A stretch of 5,000 nucleotides of DNA, taken from positions 1 to 5,000 of the forward strand of contig JAUZQA010000341.1 in assembly GCA_030705665.1 (NCBI GenBank), in the 5' to 3' direction. Both the position numbers and the translations under genes were made by a program. This document shows positions 60 through 5,000 of the stretch, in pieces. The stretch is from Bacillota bacterium. GTDB taxonomy: Bacteria; Bacillota; Bacilli; Bacillales_B; DSM-18226. The notes below the pieces were generated by a model. It was not told where the DNA came from. It did not search any database and worked only from the letters and a program-made list of their open reading frames with translations. Each line of letters opens with the position of its first letter. The first letter of the stretch is position 1.

Positions 60-419
60 GGGGACGCTACGGATTCGACAGGGGTAGTTCGAGCTTAGGT
101 TGCGAGTCGAGGGGATCGGCCTCGTTAAAACGTCAAAGCCAATAACTGGCAAAACACAAAACTCTTTCGCTTTAGCAGCTTAATAGCTCTTTAGCGGTTC
201 CTCCCTCCATCGCCCATGTGGTAGGGTAAGGGACTCACTCTTAGTGGGCTACGCCGGATTCCACCGCCTGAGGATGAAGGAAGAGAACAACCAGGCTAGC
301 TGATCGGACGCCTGTCGATAGGCAAAAGAATCAGCGAAGCGCCAATATGTCGACTACACTCGTAGAAGCTTAAGTGCCGATATCTTTGGACGTGGGTTCG
401 ACTCCCACCGTCTCCACCA
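60..419 (+). ncRNA. ssrA: tmRNA (transfer-messenger RNA)
   Basis: This RNA rescues stalled ribosomes. With SmpB it enters the empty A site as an alanyl-tRNA mimic, then serves as a short message that adds a degradation tag and supplies a stop codon. Both ends are clear. The 5' GGGGACG (60-66) pairs over seven positions, with one G-U, with CGTCTCC (409-415), followed by the discriminator A and an encoded CCA (417-419). The T-arm is intact: GTGGG (392-396), TTCGACT loop, CCCAC (404-408). The conserved 5' block GGATTCGACAGGGG follows the acceptor strand, as in Bacillus ssrA. Its 360 nt length fits Bacillaceae tmRNA. No convincing promoter is visible in the 59 bases upstream; the best, TTGAGT (8-13) with CCTAAT (32-37), is weak at 18 bp spacing. 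The upstream gene is outside the window; in related bacilli it is usually smpB. Confidence 0.97.
148..186 (+). other. tmRNA tag-peptide reading frame, tag (A)GKTQNSFALAA
   Basis: This is the message part of the tmRNA. After the conserved AATAACT the resume codon is GGC at 148. The frame reads GKTQNSFALAA and ends with TAA at 181-183, backed by an in-frame TAG at 184-186. The first alanine of the finished tag comes from the charged tmRNA itself. The ALAA end is the classic recognition signal for ClpXP-type proteolysis. The tag resembles the Bacillus forms as I recall them (B. subtilis AGKTNSFNQNVALAA, B. megaterium AGKSNNNFALAA) and is the best taxonomic clue in the window. The resume codon was placed by comparison with B. 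subtilis. Confidence 0.92.
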
Positions 420-615: not shown

Positions 616-1506
616 TCATCTGGCCTGTTTTTGTATGAGATGATACAGGGCTCCTATCATTCCAGCGTCATTTTGGTATTTACATCTCTCAACCGGAACC
701 TGAATATCTTTCCACCAATGAATCTGGTTAAGTTTATTTTTAATAGCACTTAACAAACCTTGTTGGGAAGAGACCCCGCCACCGATGAGAATTTTTTGCG
801 GGTTTAGGGTAGCCGCAAGGTTAAAAATTCCATAACTAATGTTTCTTGCCCAGTCATCAATAAGTCTTTTTACCGAAGGATCAGTAACCGCTTCTAAAAA
901 AATCGTCTCTCCCTTAATGTTTTCAGAGCCACTAATACCCTTGAGCTTTTTATAAGAATGAATTAAGGCAGCAGTAGAGGCATTGCAATGCCAAATATCA
1001 CATTGCTCCCTGCCGGCTTGGGTAATCATATAACCAAATTCACCACCCCTGAAGCTGTGACCACGCAGAAGCTTCCCATTAATAAAAATTCCCCCCCCAA
1101 CACCAGTTCCTAGTATTATACAAATAAAATCAGAACATTTTTTTCCGTTTCCGCTTATTTTTTCAGCCAAAGCAGCACAGTTTCCATCATTTTCAATTTC
1201 AACCCGCAGAGAAACTTTTTTTTCTAATAAACTTTTGAGATTCTGATTGTTTAGTGCTGTTACAGAGCCTGCGAGCTCTGAATAGCCTATATCGGGATTT
1301 ATATATCCTGGTAAACTAATCCCAACACCACTGATGTGATGATTTTTCTTATACATATTAATTGTATCTACAATATCTTTTAAAAATAATTCCAGATTTG
1401 TGCAGTGCGTATCGTAGTTACCTTTTGAAAGGATAGAACCGTTCTCAAACAACAGTCCATGCTTTACTTTTGTTCCACCTATATCAAAAGATATATATTT
1501 TTTCAA
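616..1506 (-). CDS. ROK-family sugar kinase, beta-glucoside kinase (BglK)-like
   Basis: This is a predicted cytoplasmic ATP-dependent sugar kinase of the ROK family, 296 residues. The motifs are in order: N-terminal phosphate loop DIGGTK (8-13), catalytic-base region IENDGNC with the likely base Asp107, second phosphate loop GTGVGGG (133-139), GGEFGYM (154-160) and adenosine-side IGGGVSS (241-247). Typical ROK glucokinases and NagC-type proteins carry ExGH and a CxCGxxGCxE zinc cluster; here Tyr159 replaces the His and the cysteine cluster is absent. From memory, Klebsiella BglK (about 297 aa) has the same GEFGYM variant and the same length. That makes phosphorylation of beta-glucosides such as cellobiose the best guess, though another hexose remains possible. 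No DNA-binding domain precedes the kinase, so it is not a ROK repressor. The start is TTG, chosen for its strong ribosome binding site. It lies 32 bases downstream of the P-loop kinase gene and is probably cotranscribed with it. A G8 homopolymer encodes part of the second phosphate loop. Confidence 0.85.
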   Translation of the reverse strand: MKKYISFDIGGTKVKHGLLFENGSILSKGNYDTHCTNLELFLKDIVDTINMYKKNHHISGVGISLPGYINPDIGYSELAGSVTALNNQNLKSLLEKKVSLRVEIENDGNCAALAEKISGNGKKCSDFICIILGTGVGGGIFINGKLLRGHSFRGGEFGYMITQAGREQCDIWHCNASTAALIHSYKKLKGISGSENIKGETIFLEAVTDPSVKRLIDDWARNISYGIFNLAATLNPQKILIGGGVSSQQGLLSAIKNKLNQIHWWKDIQVPVERCKYQNDAGMIGALYHLIQKQAR

Positions 1507-1538: not shown

Positions 1539-1970
1539 CTAAACAACCTTAATAATGGTTCCCTCCTGTGAGGTTGGCTTTTCGAATTCTTTGTAAATTT
1601 GTGTTAAAACATTTTCTGGCAGGCGAGTCAGTACTTTATTACGTTTTTTACAGGTTTCAAAATCGGTATCAACATGAAAAATTGTTAAAGTGAGACCAAA
1701 TTCCTTCGCGACACGGATCCATCTTTTACGACGTTCTCTGGTTCTATTAGTGGAATCCACAATTACCTTATGACCGCTTTTGAGCAATGACCGGACCATA
1801 AGCTCTGCACTTTCCCACACGCGTGGTTCGGCTTCAGCTTTATATATTTGGCCATGCGATGCCAGCCTGATATCATCAAGAGATACTCGCACCCAGCCTT
1901 GTGTTTGCAGTAATTTACCGTACGTTGTTTTCCCGCTAAGCGGTATCCCGCACATAATTCCCAGTTTCAC
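1539..1970 (-). CDS. Small P-loop kinase, T4 polynucleotide-kinase-like (AAA_33 type)
   Basis: This 143-residue cytoplasmic protein has the fold signature of the P-loop kinases grouped with the 5'-kinase domain of T4 Pnkp. The Walker A motif GIPLSGKT lies at 8-15. LDDIR (31-35) matches the acidic substrate-side motif after strand 2. KVIVDSTNRTRERR (68-81) holds the second acidic strand and the conserved TN(R/x)xxR segment. A lid-like region CKKRN (97-101) leads to LPENVLTQIYKEFEKP, which resembles the lid and C-terminal helix of this family. It probably transfers the ATP gamma-phosphate to a hydroxyl. The acceptor (polynucleotide 5'-OH, nucleoside, antibiotic or other small molecule) cannot be read from sequence, and family members are often annotated only as AAA ATPase. 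The phosphatase and ligase domains found in full RNA-repair proteins are absent. It starts at GTG with a good ribosome binding site and is first in a probable two-gene operon with the ROK kinase. Confidence 0.8.
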   Translation of the reverse strand: MKLGIMCGIPLSGKTTYGKLLQTQGWVRVSLDDIRLASHGQIYKAEAEPRVWESAELMVRSLLKSGHKVIVDSTNRTRERRKRWIRVAKEFGLTLTIFHVDTDFETCKKRNKVLTRLPENVLTQIYKEFEKPTSQEGTIIKVV

Positions 1971-2186: not shown

Positions 2187-2987
2187 ATGGTAAGGAAAGC
2201 AATTATCCCTGCCGCAGGATATGGTACTCGAAGTCTCCCAATAACAAAGGTAATACCTAAAGAAATGTTTCCTTTAGGTTTAAAACCAGCCATTCATTAT
2301 ATAGTTGACGAGGCAGTTAATTCAGGCATTGAACAATTACTTATCGTAACCTCGAAATTAAAAAACATAATTTTGGACTATTTTGATCGTTCATTGGAGT
2401 TGGAGGCTTTTTTAAGATGCAAAAATAAAGAATATTTGCTTGAACATTTAGAACTTCCAAAGATAGATATTTCTTTCGTAATACAACCATATGCAAAAGG
2501 GCTTGGAGATGCTATACGACTTGGAAAAGAATTTGTCGGAGATGAGCCTTTTGGAGTACTGTTACCGGATGATTTTATTCTTACAAGGGAAACTCCAGCT
2601 CTTAAACAATTAATTGATGTATACAAAAAAACAAATAGCAGTGTGATTGGATTAAAGCAAGTAAAACCGGAACTATTAAAAAACTATGGGGTTATCCAGG
2701 GAGCGAATCAAACGGAGCTTATTGAAATTGAAAATATCGTGGAAAAACCTAAATCAAACCCTCCTTCAGATATGGCTGTTATCGGCAGATATATTTTTAC
2801 TCCTGAGATTTTTCGATGTTTAGAGGACACAAATGAAGGTGTTGACGAGGAAATTCAATTGACAGATGCTATCAAAGGCTTGGTGGAAAAGCAGTCCGTA
2901 TATGGAAAGATCATTTCTGGTGACCGTTACGATATTGGTATTTTAAGGGATTATATAGAACTGATGAATATAATGAGTAAAAAATAA
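2187..2987 (+). CDS. GalU/GtaB-like UTP-sugar-1-phosphate uridylyltransferase, short form
   Basis: This is a predicted cytoplasmic nucleotidyltransferase making a UDP-sugar (most simply UDP-glucose) from UTP and the sugar 1-phosphate. The GalU signature is continuous: PAAGYGTR (8-15) for the nucleotide loop, PKEM (24-27), KGLGDA (104-109), metal-site LPDD (126-129), VEKPK (185-189), EIQLTDA (222-228) and GDRYDIG (245-251). At 266 residues it is some 25-35 shorter than GtaB (about 292) and E. coli GalU (about 302). The shortfall is mostly at the C-terminus, where the family's final helices are missing. Two usually conserved positions differ: KGLGH is KGLGD, and the aspartate of DKP is leucine (LKP, 32-34). 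The sugar specificity may therefore not be glucose, and a dedicated paralogue separate from housekeeping gtaB is plausible. The ATG is supported by AAGGTGGG (2173-2180), six bases upstream. The next gene follows after 37 bases on the same strand, so the pair is likely an operon supplying donor sugar to that glycosyltransferase. Confidence 0.85.
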   Translation: MVRKAIIPAAGYGTRSLPITKVIPKEMFPLGLKPAIHYIVDEAVNSGIEQLLIVTSKLKNIILDYFDRSLELEAFLRCKNKEYLLEHLELPKIDISFVIQPYAKGLGDAIRLGKEFVGDEPFGVLLPDDFILTRETPALKQLIDVYKKTNSSVIGLKQVKPELLKNYGVIQGANQTELIEIENIVEKPKSNPPSDMAVIGRYIFTPEIFRCLEDTNEGVDEEIQLTDAIKGLVEKQSVYGKIISGDRYDIGILRDYIELMNIMSKK

Positions 2988-3024: not shown

Positions 3025-5000
3025 GTGTTAGAAAAAATTTCAATCATTATTCCTTTCCAAACGGACCACGGTCCAAGAGCGAAGGCATTTGAATGGATCA
3101 AAAAGTATTATACTAGTGTTATGCCTGAGGCTGAGTTATGTATCGGTACAGTTGATGGAATGGAAATTAATAAATCCAAGGCTGTAAATTCAGCGGCAAA
3201 AAGAGCTACAAGAGATATTTTTGTAATAGCGGATGCGGATGTCATTTATGACCCTGAAATTATTGTTAAGGCTGTTAGATTGCTTAAGGAGGCAGCGTGG
3301 GTAGTTCCTTTTACTGAAATCTTCAATATTGAAAAGTCAGGTACAAAAAGATTATTTCAAGAATCTCCAAAATGGCCTATTGATGTAAAGCCAGAGGAGT
3401 GTAAAAAGGCAAATTGGATTTATGAAGGATTCGCCGGGAAACTATTAGTTATTCCTAAGGAGAATTTTGAAGCAGTTGGTGGTTTTGATGAACGGTTTAT
3501 TGGTTGGGGAGGAGAGGATGATGCTTTTTCCCATGCAGTTCGGACGATTTGTGGTGAAAATGTAAAAATTGAAGGTGAAGTCTATCATTTATGGCACCCC
3601 AGTTCAAGCTATCAAACAAATCCACATGGAAAGGAGAATGCTGAGCTTCTCTATCGTTATCATTCTGCAAGTGGAAATAAAGAGGAAATGATGAAGCTCA
3701 TTCGTAAACGGAACAGTGAACTGGGAAGACCTCAAAAACAAAATAATATTGCTGAAAATGAATGGATTCATTCGCCCGAAAGTAAAATTTGTTTTGCTAT
3801 CCTTGTTCATGAAAATAGGAAGCTAGTCAAACAACTAATTGATAATGTTCGATTCTATTGCCCTAATAGTGCAATTGTTTTATATAACGGAGGAGATGAT
3901 CCAAAACTTTGTGATGGTTTAGGAGTTCCCGTCTGCCCTTCCAGCCGAAAATTGAATCACGGGTGGACGACCATCTATTTTTTGGAGACCATGGAATGGT
4001 TAGAAGAATTGGGTGTTCAATATGAATACTTTATTAATATTGATTCAGATGCATTGTTTTATAGAAAAGGATATGAAGAATTCATTCAAACTGAAATGAA
4101 AGATACTGATTATATGGCGGTCCTGCTTAGGATTCCAGAACTAGATTGGTTTATAGGAAAAGAACTGCAGAAGGACAATAATAGATGGAAAGAATTATTT
4201 AATCTAAATCCCTTTTATGGCGTTTTTAATGTTGGCCAGGTTATTTCAAGACCACTGGTTAAGTCATTACTTCAACCAGATAGAAAGAAAAAGTTAAAAA
4301 AAGTTTTATTGGAAACAGTATCCTTCGGTTCGGATGAAATCCTTTTTGTCAATATGGCAAATGAGCTTGGGTTTAGGATAAAAAAATATCCAAATCCAAT
4401 GGATGCAAGGATGATCCGATATCGTCCTTATATTACAGTAAATGAAATGCTTTCCTGCCTAAATAGCACTCAAAGCGGTTTTCTATGTCACCCCGTGATT
4501 CGAGAAAAAAATAACTCGGTAAGAAAACTAATCCTAAATATTCAAGGTGATAATAAAACAAAACAATACAAAAGCAAGGAATATCCATGGCATGAGGAAA
4601 ATTCAAATAATTATTCTATTTCTCTTCCAATCAAAAGTAAATTTGGCAATTTAGAGCTTATTGTTCGTTCAAATTCTTCGTTAACTCACTATTGGAGGCA
4701 TCCAAGCAGGAAGTGGTATAAAAGTGAGACGTTTGCTCAGGGTGTTATAGGAAATCCGGTATTTTTTGAAAATAATTCCGGACAATTTGTGGTAGTTTGT
4801 AAATTAAAAGGCGGGGGAGTTGGGCTTTGGAAAAGAAATAACCAAGCACAGGGCCTCCCATGGACAGGACCATCTGTTATTTTACATGAAAATGCAGACC
4901 CCATAATGGGAAAACAGCAGAAGGACGGCAGCTATATAATCGTTTTTAAATATAACAATAAATTCTTTTATTTTGTAATAGGAAAAGGGGAGTCGTATAT
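3025..5000 (+). CDS. Large multidomain glycosyltransferase with two GT-A-like domains and lectin-like repeats (3' end outside window)
   Basis: The frame is open from GTG to the window edge: 658 codons are visible and no stop is reached. Domain 1 (about 1-240) is a GT-A glycosyltransferase: strand EKISIIIPF at the start, a DAD metal motif (70-72) in VIADADV, GWGGEDDAF (160-168), which is the acceptor/catalytic motif of the galactosyltransferase-type C-terminal region (Glyco_transf_7C), and YHLWHP (187-192). Domain 2 (about 253-480) starts with a fresh beta strand (KICFAILVHENRKL), has a DSD motif (340-342) in FINIDSDALF and a late SDE (436-438). It looks like a second, divergent GT-A domain, faintly like the core-2 branching type. 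From about 541 the protein has repeats resembling PLL-type lectin beta-propeller blades. No signal peptide or membrane segment is visible, so it should act in the cytoplasm or be peripheral. It is probably translated from the same mRNA as the galU-like gene. Family assignment of domain 1 is fairly firm; domain 2 and the substrates are inference. Confidence 0.8.
   Translation, partial: MLEKISIIIPFQTDHGPRAKAFEWIKKYYTSVMPEAELCIGTVDGMEINKSKAVNSAAKRATRDIFVIADADVIYDPEIIVKAVRLLKEAAWVVPFTEIFNIEKSGTKRLFQESPKWPIDVKPEECKKANWIYEGFAGKLLVIPKENFEAVGGFDERFIGWGGEDDAFSHAVRTICGENVKIEGEVYHLWHPSSSYQTNPHGKENAELLYRYHSASGNKEEMMKLIRKRNSELGRPQKQNNIAENEWIHSPESKICFAILVHENRKLVKQLIDNVRFYCPNSAIVLYNGGDDPKLCDGLGVPVCPSSRKLNHGWTTIYFLETMEWLEELGVQYEYFINIDSDALFYRKGYEEFIQTEMKDTDYMAVLLRIPELDWFIGKELQKDNNRWKELFNLNPFYGVFNVGQVISRPLVKSLLQPDRKKKLKKVLLETVSFGSDEILFVNMANELGFRIKKYPNPMDARMIRYRPYITVNEMLSCLNSTQSGFLCHPVIREKNNSVRKLILNIQGDNKTKQYKSKEYPWHEENSNNYSISLPIKSKFGNLELIVRSNSSLTHYWRHPSRKWYKSETFAQGVIGNPVFFENNSGQFVVVCKLKGGGVGLWKRNNQAQGLPWTGPSVILHENADPIMGKQQKDGSYIIVFKYNNKFFYFVIGKGESY
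4645..5000 (+). repeat. Protein-level repeats, putative PLL-like beta-propeller blades
   Basis: Within the large glycosyltransferase, three related units begin near residues 541, 586 and 635 (bases 4645, 4780 and 4927), a period of 45-49 residues. Each opens with G/D-x-aromatic-or-L followed by a hydrophobic strand (GNLELIV, GQFVVVC, GSYIIVF). In the first two comes an aromatic strand with tryptophan (LTHYWRHP, VGLWKRNN), then W-x-G/S and a G/N-P or G-P-S turn before the next strand. This is the pattern of fucose/sugar-binding PLL-type propellers with HYWRD-like blades. The third unit is cut by the window edge, so the full blade number is unknown. The repeats are visible in protein only, not in DNA. 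Confidence 0.55.

Follow-up and report, generated by a model that had tools for sequence, protein, structure and literature searches.

We analyzed a 5,000-nucleotide stretch (positions 1 to 5,000 of contig JAUZQA010000341.1, assembly GCA_030705665.1, from a Bacillota bacterium), hereafter called the window, whose last gene encodes two glycosyltransferase domains of the GT-A fold (D1 and D2) fused to PLL-type lectin repeats. This fusion protein is probably a bifunctional transferase, soluble and inverting, that attaches two beta-linked sugars in succession, its lectin blades holding the product; its layout recalls human chondroitin synthase (GT31-GT7) with the two domains in the opposite order. 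An open lectin fragment is thereby combined with GT7-like and GT31/GT14-like chemistry, of which the best-known examples are otherwise glycan enzymes of animals. An initial annotation had read one uninterrupted frame carrying two DxD motifs, two GT-A domains and lectin-like repeats; the motifs lie where it placed them (Table 1), the domains were recovered, and their catalytic signatures are intact, so that both catalytic sites look functional from their residues. Each domain resembles something known, and the combination appears to be new among bifunctional GT-A enzymes; as had been suspected, no description of it was found in the open-access literature (titles and abstract openings; subscription papers and preprints were outside the scope). 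The frame is still open at the window end, and its stop was placed through a near-identical relative, P0002 (662 amino acids); over 658 positions the two translations show 7 differences, one of which is the start codon. Since P0002 has 4 more residues, the stop codon of the fusion gene very likely lies shortly after base 5000, about four codons beyond the window.

The predicted structure of D1 showed a GT-A fold of the beta-1,4-galactosyltransferase (beta4GalT) type, and PF02709 matched it with 40.5 bits (cut-off 23). An alignment of 58 D1 sequences retained D70, D72, D165, H188 and H191 in all 58 and E164 in 57. D1 shares the fold and the DxD, GWGGEDD and HxxH signatures with the GT7 beta-1,4-galactosyltransferases, although it is only ~20% identical to them, bacterial, and fused to other domains. 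GWGGEDD had been annotated between the two DxD motifs; its position (160-166) was confirmed, but it is not a separate feature, as it belongs to D1's own active site. Another two-transferase pairing, D1 with a GT8 domain, was seen in the domain lists of P0088-P0095 (named Geobacillus, Anaerobacillus, Bacillus and Neobacillus), of which the family scan covered P0088 and P0092.

For D2, the GT-A fold annotated for residues 250-485 agreed with the predicted structure. The nearest folds were of the xylosyltransferase/core-2 N-acetylglucosaminyltransferase (C2GnT) type, both of which belong to GT14. D342 and E438 were present in all 120 sequences of a D2 alignment, and the DxD, acid and histidine resembled those of GT31, the equivalence being judged by order and spacing, not by superposition. 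No Pfam or NCBIfam model covered D2 of the window protein, hmmscan did not list PF02485 (Branch) for this protein up to E 1, and deeper D2-only profiles compared with the sequences of solved structures gave nothing better than E 0.12. D2 is 11-15% identical to the core-2 and xylosyltransferases, carries a [DE]xD motif, and has no significant sequence-profile link to them. Because the residues at its catalytic motifs are conserved across the 120 proteins aligned here, D2 may well deserve a CAZy family of its own. It was also combined with other transferases, as D2-GT4, DUF707-D2 and GT2-D2 (P0133).

The repeats annotated from about residue 541 are real. A family profile that includes them matched Photorhabdus PLL lectins at E = 6.2e-10 (3.6e-10 in another search), and both share W-motif repeats. 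However, the full propeller that had been supposed did not hold. By strand count, P0002 has about three blades and P0065 has four; some relatives have fewer, and 151 and ~190 residues aligned to PLLs that are ~340-353 residues long. Unlike the seven-bladed Photorhabdus lectins, the repeats are fused to enzymes, and neither the fusion protein nor P0065 holds a closed seven-bladed propeller in one chain.

We then surveyed the relatives. Full-length fusions numbered 36 (P0002 and P0003-P0037, 637-717 amino acids), and since P0002 and 35 more proteins aligned over 91-100% of the query, chance assembly of the fusion was excluded. By domain profile, 113 hits comprised 38 D1-D2-lectin, 42 D2-lectin, 3 D1-lectin, 25 D1-only, 3 D1-D2 and 2 D2-only proteins. 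The 38 include P0044 (476 amino acids, from a 2020-base contig) and P0048 (448 amino acids, with a D1 remnant only), the D2-lectin group includes P0057 with GT4 and GT2 domains in D1's place, and the D1-D2 group includes the doubtful P0103, in which Pfam shows only GT2/GT7 domains. A D2 tree (one FastTree run, P0038 left out) placed P0002-P0037 in one 39-tip clade with P0039, P0042 and P0044 (support 0.60). In the three D1-lectin proteins, the match to P0004 extends from residue 1 to 239-254 and picks up again at 484-508; D2 looks as if it had been excised from them. Two of them, P0045 and P0047, end within the lectin match, at a point where the genome match crosses a stop codon, and may be decaying copies. 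A short stretch like the start of D1 opens the D2-lectin proteins P0046, P0048 and P0050 (E 1e-4 to 0.002), not P0049, and hints at D1 loss in these three. At one locus (L084, 7463-10670), a D1-lectin gene, whose match crosses a stop, directly precedes a full D1-D2-lectin gene, forming a natural pair with and without D2.

D2-lectin proteins without D1 occurred in Paenibacillaceae and Bacillaceae. The D2-lectin profile was detected in 16 of the 61 genomes of the N. citreus genus, and in at least 17 of 193 genomes of its family, at least 11 of 398 of its class and at least 1 of 398 of its phylum, the last being N. citreus itself. These first-look counts are lower bounds (in G001, 4 or 8 of 13 candidates were scored), and the 16 genomes comprise fusions together with stand-alone or degenerate D2 frames (G465, G475, G478 and G480). 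Genome G006, with a D1-only gene at locus L015, groups in the N. citreus genus, so its name, Paenibacillus sp. BSR1-1, is probably wrong.

From domain identity, predicted fold, conserved catalytic-motif residues, gene order and the modular gain and loss of domains, we infer a scheme for the donors, linkage, addition order, acceptor and lectin role. Enzymes of GT7 and GT31 work by inversion and produce beta linkages, as described in PMC12748766; since these are the nearest classes, sequential beta-linked addition is favored. The enzyme, in which hydropathy revealed no membrane segment, would be soluble, cytosolic and metal-dependent, and D1 (GT7-like) and D2 (GT31/GT14-like) would each use a nucleotide sugar, adding two different beta-linked sugars successively to the same acceptor. 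At least one donor would probably be a UDP-sugar from the adjacent GalU-like enzyme, and the neighboring kinases together with GalU could feed this UDP-sugar to the transferase. D2 and the blades would make up a single rigid body, joined to D1 by a flexible linker, and the blades would bind the growing glycan or an already glycosylated carrier near both active sites. Between the two products first proposed, a two-sugar unit fits better than an alternating polymer, and an obligate polymerase is disfavored because single-transferase forms (D2-lectin without D1) are common. The natural D2-lectin and D1-lectin forms would let each step be tested separately, and a soluble single-chain enzyme could express easily and become a tool for defined glycans. 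Mucin-type polypeptide N-acetylgalactosamine (GalNAc) transferases similarly join a GT-A domain to a C-terminal lectin, which steers acceptors; however, theirs is a beta-trefoil lectin, the chemistry is retaining, and there is one catalytic domain.

Several results weigh against parts of this scheme. An hhalign comparison of D2 with 13 bacterial Branch proteins (PF02485) was collinear, but weak (probability 3.8%, P 0.011; controls with three single sequences, D2-D1 and D1-Branch gave P 0.078-0.45); this link was not significant, and membership of D2 in GT14 by sequence was not retained. PF01762 (Galactosyl_T) was not listed for the window protein and matched weakly in 9 of 37 D2-only relatives (best 2.6e-4) and 3 of 39 D2-lectin proteins (best 0.019); Glycos_transf_2 matched about as many D2-only relatives (8/37, best 1.2e-4). 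A GalU-like gene, the probable operon partner of the fusion gene, lay directly upstream in 7 of 16 distinct fusion loci (window, L001-L011, L081, L083, L084 and L089, with duplicates L082, L085, L087 and L088 dropped; four more fusion loci, three in G502 and one in G488, fall outside this count), but not in the other 9. In addition, a UDP-galactopyranose mutase gene adjoins a D2-only gene at L079 and a DUF707-D2 gene at L075, yet the 9 of 61 genus genomes in which it occurs include none of the 16 that have D2 (Fisher p 0.096; here and below, Fisher values are uncorrected for kinship). D2 relatives may therefore use another donor. These mutase genes, and a Foldseek match of P0065 to a galactofuranosyltransferase, had pointed to galactofuranose as a donor. 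For the fusion enzyme itself, galactofuranose is disfavored by the 0/16 count, and it is possible for the D2-only relatives. Two loci carry two D2-only genes per cluster (L078, 8374-11082; L079, 8752-11483); at L079, the mutase gene lies upstream and a gene for a 382-residue enolase-superfamily-like protein separates the two.

It is possible, though we consider it unlikely, that the enzyme works in the mother cell and glycosylates a protein of the spore coat or crust. This is a question of site and is compatible with sequential two-sugar addition. The evidence comes from L071, L072 and L073, three Paenibacillus-like loci whose D2-lectin proteins are of the four-blade type. A CotS-family spore coat kinase gene lies near the D2-lectin gene at L071 and L072 (174.3 and 171.9 bits; cut-off 172.7), as do small Ser/Asp-tailed proteins (three copies and one), but the two D2-lectin proteins are 93% identical and hence nearly one observation. 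L073 has a nearby YhcN/YlaJ sporulation lipoprotein gene, which scored above the Pfam and below the NCBIfam cut-off. The gene ytdA is a galU homologue. In B. subtilis, ytdA-ytcABC are among the genes involved in the crust, according to PMC7439481. However, no spore gene was recognized in the window, and upstream alignments showed no clear sporulation promoter: a CATAAnnATA-like stretch preceded the galU-like gene in just three of four aligned loci (window, L001, L002 and L004). Judged by the Paenibacillus-like loci, the spore surface is a reasonable place to look, although nothing in the window points to it. A HipA-like kinase gene follows the D2-lectin gene in the three Paenibacillus-like loci (the L073 copy by 48% identity). 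At L071 (10778-13414), the small proteins, which have Cys and a Ser/Asp-rich tail, are encoded in three tandem copies beside the D2-lectin, HipA-like kinase and CotS-family kinase genes, and no NCBIfam match was found for them.

We regard as rather doubtful an alternating-copolymer synthase, in which D1 and D2 alternate on one chain as in E. coli K4 chondroitin polymerase (K4CP), heparosan synthase and CHSY1/3, with the blades as product clamp. Both sites look intact, and two GT-A sites with catalytic motifs were found in one chain, as in bifunctional glycosaminoglycan-type synthases. Human CHSY3 has the same two classes in one chain in reverse order, GT31 then GT7, each domain carrying DxD, acid and His residues, as given in PMC12748766; compared with CHSY1/CHSY3, the fusion protein has its GT7-like domain first, no membrane anchor, and added lectin blades. 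A Foldseek search with the whole protein ranked K4CP first (1.3e-12), with P. multocida heparosan synthase 2 (PmHS2) among the top 13 rows; both are likewise bacterial single-chain GT-A pairs. However, these whole-chain matches had a root-mean-square deviation of ~20 Å and a template-modeling score of ~0.23, indicating that the domains are placed differently; moreover, D2 is nearer GT14/GT31 folds, and the blades are absent from K4CP and PmHS2. Further points against alternation are the frequency of D2-lectin without D1 (42/113) beside D1-lectin (3/113, two of the three maybe decaying), the pairing of D1 with a GT8 domain (P0088 and P0092), and the lack of any UDP-glucose dehydrogenase or export gene among the four scanned window genes. 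A bolder form strikes us as improbable, namely a domain-order-reversed bacterial counterpart of chondroitin synthase making some new alternating beta-linked polysaccharide, whose three-blade PLL clamp closes into a sugar-binding ring on subunit assembly and whose D2 founds a new family. Finally, it is quite improbable that catalysis is confined to one domain, leaving the other and the blades to serve as a module for substrate binding or scaffolding as in CHPF: human CHPF and CHPF2 show that two-transferase proteins may retain inactive domains, but their donor-binding residues are not conserved (both from PMC12748766), whereas the catalytic signatures of D1 and D2 are nearly invariant.

Table 1. 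Features of the window and domains of the fusion protein
Feature	Coordinates	Strand	Remarks
tmRNA gene	60-419	+	tag GKTQNSFALAA
ROK-family sugar kinase	616..1506	-	ROK 7.8e-51; BglK-like 216 bits, below 550 cut-off; divergent, co-occurring
AAA_33 P-loop kinase	1539..1970	-	AAA_33 7.5e-23; divergent, co-occurring
GalU-like sugar-1-phosphate nucleotidyltransferase	2187..2987	+	NTP_transferase 1.1e-34; galU TIGR01099 302.8 bits, below 326.8 cut-off
Fusion-gene frame	3025-5000	+	GTG start; open to window end
D1, residues 1-237	3025..3735	+	GT-A, GT7/beta-1,4-galactosyltransferase type; DAD 70-72, GWGGEDD 160-166, HLWH 188-191
Flexible linker, residues ~238-251	3736..3777	+	predicted local distance difference test (pLDDT) <50 at 235-251 in the predicted model
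D2, residues ~252-512	3778..4560	+	second GT-A; no Pfam/NCBIfam match here; DSD 340-342, E438, H489
PLL-type lectin repeats, residues 516-658 (to 662 in P0002)	4570..4998	+	~three blades

The fusion frame starts 37 nucleotides after the GalU-like gene, and a Shine-Dalgarno-like stretch, AAAGGAGAG, rated a good ribosome-binding stretch, lies upstream of its start codon. Of the 16 fusion-locus stretches, 10 contained a ROK kinase gene and 9 contained the AAA_33 kinase gene; at L004, the kinase genes lie ~7 kb off, next to a D1-lectin gene. Within the N. citreus genus, close AAA_33 homologues (73-83% identity) occurred in 11/16 D2 genomes and 0/45 others (Fisher p 1e-8), ROK matches at E <= 1e-90 in 11/16 and 1/45 (p 1e-7), and close GalU homologues in 7/16 and 1/45 (p 2e-4). 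The identity limits for 'close' (73% for AAA_33, 68% for GalU) were chosen post hoc at gaps in the lists, and weaker homologues are more widespread (AAA_33 in 18 and GalU in all of the 61 genomes). The AAA_33 protein, which may phosphorylate a sugar, also gave weaker PSTK-like and Zeta_toxin-like matches.

Judged by the tmRNA gene and the named relatives, the window probably comes from the chromosome of a Neobacillus-like species. A plasmid origin was rejected, as the sole plasmid match (52-429, 86.5%) is the tmRNA gene. The glycosyltransferase locus sits downstream of this gene; tmRNA genes are a frequent insertion place for mobile elements.
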